Source: Cyclobacteriaceae bacterium
GTDB lineage: Bacteria > Bacteroidota > Bacteroidia > Cytophagales > Cyclobacteriaceae
Assembly: GCA_958296015.1 (NCBI GenBank)
Contig: CATQIH010000001.1
Coordinates: 124,001 to 188,000, forward strand
Direction: 5' to 3'
DNA: 64,000 nt
The notes beneath the pieces are model-generated. The model was not told where the DNA came from and did not search any database. It was given only the letters and a program-made list of their open reading frames with translations. The translations under genes were made by a program, and so were the position numbers. Below, piece by piece: positions 62,046 to 62,600 of this stretch. How positions within the stretch are numbered: the stretch's first letter is position 1; the number at the start of each line of letters is the position of its first letter.

Positions 62046-62078
62046 TGATCGGTAATCGGTGGTCAGTGATCGGTAATC
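62046..62078 (+). repeat. Left terminal repeat of four-helix-bundle cassette
   Basis: TGATCGGTAATCGGTGGTCAGTGATCGGTAATC; inverted relative of 62551-62600. Confidence 0.85.
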
Positions 62079-62105
62079 AATGTTTACTGACTACCGCTCA
62101 CCGAA

Positions 62106-62492
62106 TCAAGTTTGGCAGAACTGTGGGGCTTTTTGTATCATGTTGTTGATCATTTTGCCAAGTAATTCGCATTTGTCTGTGAGTTCTTTACATTGTTTCA
62201 TGGAAACGTATTCACATTCTAGCGCAACTTCCAACCAGTGTTGTGTTTCAAACTGCTCAGAGTCCGCATCTGTTAGTTTAGACATAAAATGTTTTACATA
62301 TTTTCTCTTTCCCCAACTTTCAGCGATTTGTGCTCCAACAGATCTGGAAGAACGTCTGATTTGATCTGTTAAAGCGTATTTTTCTTCAGAAGGAAAAACC
62401 TTTGAGATACGAAATATCTCACATGCAATTTCTCTTGATAGTTTATAGGTTTCTAAATCCTTAAAACTCATCGCATAGCTCATGTTGATCAA
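62106..62492 (-). CDS. Four helix bundle protein (S23/IVP-like)
   Basis: 'FKDLETYKLSREIACEIFRISKVFPSEEKYALTDQIRRSSRSVGAQIAESWGKR' family signature. Confidence 0.95.
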   Translation of the reverse strand: MINMSYAMSFKDLETYKLSREIACEIFRISKVFPSEEKYALTDQIRRSSRSVGAQIAESWGKRKYVKHFMSKLTDADSEQFETQHWLEVALECEYVSMKQCKELTDKCELLGKMINNMIQKAPQFCQT

Positions 62493-62550
62493 ATTTTGTC
62501 TGGTTTAAAATTTTTACGCCAAAACCTTGCCCAACTCCCTAGAGTTTCAT

Positions 62551-62600
62551 AATTACCGCTTACCGATCACTGATTACCGATTACCGATTACCGCCCACCG
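62551..62600 (-). repeat. Right terminal repeat of four-helix-bundle cassette, with CGATTAC tandem units
   Basis: AATTACCGCTTACCGATCACTGATTACCGATTACCGATTACCGCCCACCG; reverse complement matches the left repeat at about 29 of 34 positions by eye. Confidence 0.85.

Follow-up and report, generated by a model that had tools for sequence, protein, structure and literature searches.

An IVP gene of a kind previously known mainly from insertions in bacterial ribosomal RNA lies here between two protein genes, framed by inverted arrays of degenerate short repeats, and the whole unit is a cassette inserted into a tight gene cluster. We analyzed a 64,000-nucleotide stretch of a Cyclobacteriaceae genome (GCA_958296015.1, contig CATQIH010000001.1, positions 124,001 to 188,000), hereafter called the window. 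The cassette and its neighbors, all on the minus strand, are arranged as follows.

62581..63963 (minus strand): upstream host gene, FAD-dependent oxidoreductase, whose last codons (TVGGNR and the stop TAA) are read inside the array
62551..62600 (minus strand): 5′ arm in gene sense, a degenerate heptad array, CGGTGGGCGGTAATCGGTAATCGGTAATCAGTGATCGGTAAGCGGTAAT
62106..62492 (minus strand): IVP / S23p / four-helix-bundle gene, with a likely ATG start near 62471
62045..62107 (minus strand): 3′ arm in gene sense, GATTACCGATCACTGACCACCGATTACCGATCAC, preceded by a short inverted stretch of the same motif
62019..62606 (minus strand): whole cassette, with approximate borders
61047..62018 (minus strand): downstream host gene, phosphotriesterase-family protein

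A sequence-only reading had described a four-helix-bundle gene between inverted repeats within an otherwise tight catabolic gene cluster, and our analysis confirmed this observation. The open reading frame matches PF05635 (E 7.5e-31; 106.9 bits against a cut-off of 33.8) and TIGR02436 (E 4.7e-29), and the position of the start codon is suggested by homologues. Solved relatives are 2RLD and 2GSC, and the Xanthomonas protein of this family is a ring-shaped homopentamer of four-helix bundles (as cited in PMC4990558). The arms at 62045-62076 and 62560-62591 are 91% complementary over 32 nt, which makes them the longest inverted pair with arms up to 900 bp apart in the whole window. The right arm carries three tandem GATTACC units, whereas the left arm also holds a short inverted piece (62088-62105). 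When the cassette was folded as RNA, the two arms paired with an energy of -158.6 kcal/mol, compared with -124.3 +/- 6.4 kcal/mol for shuffled sequences (z -5.4).

Comparison with relatives indicates that the cassette is a real insertion. Of the 60 relatives searched, only two held an orthologue of the upstream gene at the cut-off used, and both have the same gene pair without the cassette. In G026, a genome of the same genus whose FAD protein is 81% identical, the FAD gene ends with SGWVHNFSKTRQ and the phosphotriesterase gene starts 11 bp later. In the second relative, G032, it ends with NGWSNNLKNL and the gap is 2 bp. In the window, the FAD protein ends with DGWGLTVGGNR, the last residues and stop codon being read inside the heptad array, whereas homologues end with GWVHNFSKTRQ or GWSNNLKNL. 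The G+C content of the cassette gene is 36%, compared with 49-50% in its neighbors. That the window holds an inserted cassette of the class described here is highly probable, and is much more certain than how the unit moves.

The architecture is general. The three other IVP genes examined in this genome are each bracketed by inverted degenerate arrays, each with a different motif as read by eye. To quantify this, we compared the 200 bp upstream of each gene with the reverse complement of the 200 bp downstream, using dinucleotide shuffles as a background. Matches above z 4 were found in 17 of 29 IVP loci of the same GTDB family, 33 of 48 relatives of the window protein, 24 of 30 further Flavobacterium IVPs, and 10 of 13 loci on plasmids of Cyanobacteria, Gemmatimonadota, Spirochaetota and Alphaproteobacteria, but in 0 of 30 ParE toxin loci. 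The total of 84 of 120 loci mixes these four samples, and the first IVP sets were the best-scoring matches of each genome and not a random draw. Chloroflexota copies show the arrangement too. The match is locus-specific, because none of 5000 re-pairings of left and right flanks reached the observed mean. Periods 7, 14 and 21 are the clearly enriched ones, although one Flavobacterium IVP clade uses 8-mers such as CTAAGGTT.

The sequence of the repeat unit differs between loci but follows the IVP lineage. Array similarity rises with IVP similarity (Mantel rho 0.24, 0 of 500), also when only pairs at different genomic sites are compared (rho 0.20, 0 of 500). For example, the window and the IVP loci L141 and L175 carry GGTAATC-like arrays at three different sites, and loci L144, L145, L148, L150 and L154 carry CAGTNNN arrays at several sites. 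Neighboring genes are almost always transcribed in the same direction as IVP. We counted 66 co-oriented pairs against 2 reversed and 7 mixed, and 30 of 30 in a further set, giving 96:2 (p 3e-26).

The ruvC-hemW junction of Flavobacterium provides a natural experiment. In about 60 species, this junction is empty (stop and start codons overlapping or one base apart), holds a 48-81 bp solo hairpin of CAGTNNN heptads, holds the same kind of hairpin with an IVP gene at its apex (478-700 bp), or holds an octamer hairpin without IVP. At the junction in one genome (G544, locus L238), the octamer hairpin is present twice in tandem. On a RuvC tree, the IVP state needs at least 8 changes on strongly supported branches, and species with identical RuvC differ in state, although the tree is of one short protein and many of its forks are weak. 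Between two species (G278 and G462), the IVP cassette, non-coding arms included, differs at 9 of 567 sites (1.6%), while the flanking ruvC and hemW differ at 192 of 1622 (12%; p 1e-16). This indicates recent horizontal exchange of the unit, but we could not exclude homologous exchange of a short tract. IVP is under purifying selection there, with a median dN/dS of 0.08 over 20 pairs, compared with 0.03 for ruvC.

Arrays of this kind also disperse without the gene. In pattern searches, which covered chosen motifs only, CAGTNNNCAGTNNNCAGT occurs 106, 111 and 63 times in the genomes G495, G531 and G510, respectively, against 0-1 for the reversed control pattern, and about 0 times in some other species of the genus. 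Twenty of twenty sampled sites in G495 lack IVP, and most lie at gene ends. The outermost unit in Flavobacterium is (T/A)AGT rather than CAGT in 65 of 148 runs, against 9 of 148 at inner ends, so the arrays have defined ends. In the window's own genome, two inverted GATTACC arrays without IVP (L014, 1917-2130, and L015, 1992-2105) each start right after a stop codon and share a core like GTAACCAATAA..AAGGT between the arms. A matched IVP as the obligate driver of solo arrays was rejected, because array copy number does not follow the presence of a CAGT-type IVP and one genome with 106 array hits has no matching IVP.

The cassette shares much of its anatomy with 23S rRNA intervening sequences (IVSs). 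An IVP on an Azospirillum lipoferum plasmid (L375) lies inside a 23S rRNA gene (RF02541, 1111 bits) and is flanked by inverted GACAGAG/GACGGAG heptads. The published Coxiella IVS has GACAGAT heptads 5′ of its S23p ORF and a 28-bp terminal stem, and is cut out by RNase III; IVSs replace the tetraloops of helices 9, 25 and 45 (PMC4990558). The homologous ORF, which is present in some IVSs, the terminal inverted repeats closing a stem around it, the heptameric repeats 5′ of it, the sporadic distribution and the optional or decaying ORF are shared with the IVSs of Coxiella and Leptospira. The window cassette looks and probably works like an IVS. However, it is not one by location, because positions 61000-64000 gave no Rfam match and the neighbors are protein genes. 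It further differs in that the arms are long arrays of degenerate heptads on both sides, many different motifs are used, several copies occur per genome, and gene-less hairpins are common.

We therefore favor, with moderate confidence, an IVS-type selfish hairpin element with an IVP gene at the apex of a long stem, acquired as a unit at the 3′ end of the FAD oxidoreductase gene inside a co-directional cluster. In this view, the arms would pair in the host transcript and loop out the IVP reading frame, which would be translated from host transcription, hence the sense orientation, and the unit would spread with help in trans. Our computations show the arms, the insertion, the gain, loss and transfer of such cassettes elsewhere (with the reservation given above), the purifying selection on IVP, the orientation bias, and the same anatomy in a 23S rRNA IVS. 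In contrast, pairing in vivo, RNase III cleavage of the stem as in rRNA IVSs, binding of the repeat arms by the IVP ring, and copying or movement by a trans-acting enzyme are inferred. Solo hairpins are taken as gene-less members of the same family, arisen by deletion or moving independently. Two results weaken selection for an exact RNA stem, which we do not claim: mismatches between arms show no G-U preference (49 G-U type against 42 A-C type), and the two arms of one genome match no better than arms of different genomes among orthologous ruvC-hemW hairpins. Neither a mobilizing enzyme nor a clear target duplication was found.

A less likely but serious alternative is a MITE-like DNA element, in which the hairpin is moved by a DNA transposase in trans, IVP is a passenger or accessory gene captured at the apex, and RNA plays no part in movement. 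The dispersed solo hairpins, the defined array ends and the lack of G-U bias are consistent with this possibility. However, the 96:2 orientation is not expected of a DNA element with symmetrical ends unless selected, no transposase was identified, IVP is under purifying selection, and the same anatomy occurs inside rRNA. Inverted ends are present in the window, but no target-site duplication was demonstrable there, where the relatives are too diverged at the junction. Four near-identical copies of a MITE-like element of about 105 bp, in both orientations, lie in the window at 8599-8726, 23007-23110, 40168-40283 and 56498-56601, with ends TATACTACGGTACA...TGTACCGTAGTATA. Three copies have 9-bp flanking duplications (GGTTAAAAG, GAAGTAAAC, GCTGTATTC), and the fourth has one mismatch.

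It is more doubtful that the element is a regulatory device, with IVP as an RNA- or DNA-binding protein that recognizes its lineage-specific heptads, its own arms and the solo hairpins being operators that set the expression of flanking genes. The covariation of IVP lineage and motif at different sites, the conservation of IVP, the position of hairpins between stop and start codons and the family's pentameric ring would fit this idea, whereas the rapid gain and loss at the same junction, the occurrence of many arrays without a matching IVP, and the empty sites in close relatives argue against it. That the arms are ordinary terminator or attenuator hairpins beside an ordinary resident gene is very unlikely. 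The hairpins do lie at gene ends, but the heptad arrays, the locus-specific motifs, the controls at zero, the empty sites and the horizontal transfer disfavor this explanation, and no poly-T tract follows the arms in the window.

The interpretation in the sequence-only reading, a poorly described mobile unit suggested by the repeats and the insertion position, is partly supported. It was right that a packaged cassette is inserted in a tight cluster, that the repeats belong to it, and that such units behave as mobile. Conserved synteny of the gene across genera, which had been set beforehand as a refuting observation, was not found. However, the exact GATTACC repeat does not mark such genes in general, because each IVP lineage carries its own array motif, and the repeat does not always flank such genes. 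The link to diversity-generating retroelements through the related fold of their Avd protein is not supported beyond distant homology: NF033474 scores 28 bits against a cut-off of 80 and PF22296 34.6 against 40, and that reading saw no reverse transcriptase. The closer relative is the 23S rRNA IVS itself.

REPINs and their RAYT transposases are also small palindromic elements dispersed near gene ends, with arrays linked to a gene family. In our case, the only gene in the cassette is IVP, with no Y1 transposase in the unit, and the arms are heptad arrays rather than REP palindromes. A Y1 transposase as partner was rejected because the Y1_Tnp loci examined have REP palindromes and showed no period 7. 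In the window's genome, which holds 15 Y1 matches, a Y1 (IS200/RAYT-like) transposase gene (L017, 40-573) lies about 1.5 kb from the IVP copy on contig 32.

A literature search for this architecture, whose coverage was partial so that absence is weak evidence, found only the Coxiella IVS paper and a report on TAACTGA heptamer repeats of Beggiatoaceae, Cyanobacteria and Bacteroidetes (MacGregor 2015, PMC4679880), and we judge novelty with caution. TAACTGA is the reverse complement of TCAGTTA, the CAGTNNN type found here, and the taxa overlap. That work reports direct repeats mostly near start codons, and a search of its text found no mention of S23 or four-helix proteins; the identity of the two repeat types is our inference from sequence alone.

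S23p/IVP proteins have had no known function, and their rRNA insertions no known mode of spread. The common location of the gene at the apex of inverted heptad hairpins between protein genes, the quick turnover of these units at defined junctions, and the presence of the same arms in rRNA copies make the origin and mobility of IVSs testable in easily grown Flavobacterium. They also offer a possible source for the dispersed heptamer repeats of Cyanobacteria, Beggiatoaceae and Bacteroidetes, and warn that some intergenic hairpins taken for regulators may be element remnants. A bolder and only tentative possibility, of considerable interest if true, is that heptad-hairpin elements are a distinct, very widespread class of mobile genetic element, spread through an RNA stem-loop intermediate with the IVP ring as repeat-binding factor. 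The 23S rRNA IVSs would then be only the rare copies that landed in rRNA, and part of the unexplained heptamer repeats of bacterial genomes would be their gene-less relics.

A second, unrelated gene family appears to use a similar packaging. GxxExxY nuclease-like genes (PDDEXK_3 / GxxExxY loci, L050-L079) are also framed by degenerate arrays, with a period of 8-10 (for example, CACAGATTACACAGATT and CGCAAAGGCGC) and in direct and inverted orientation, and 13 of 29 loci were above z 4. Finally, on a plasmid of Pseudanabaena galeata (L370), an IVP cassette with AAAAGCT heptads sits between cas6 and cas4 of a CRISPR locus.
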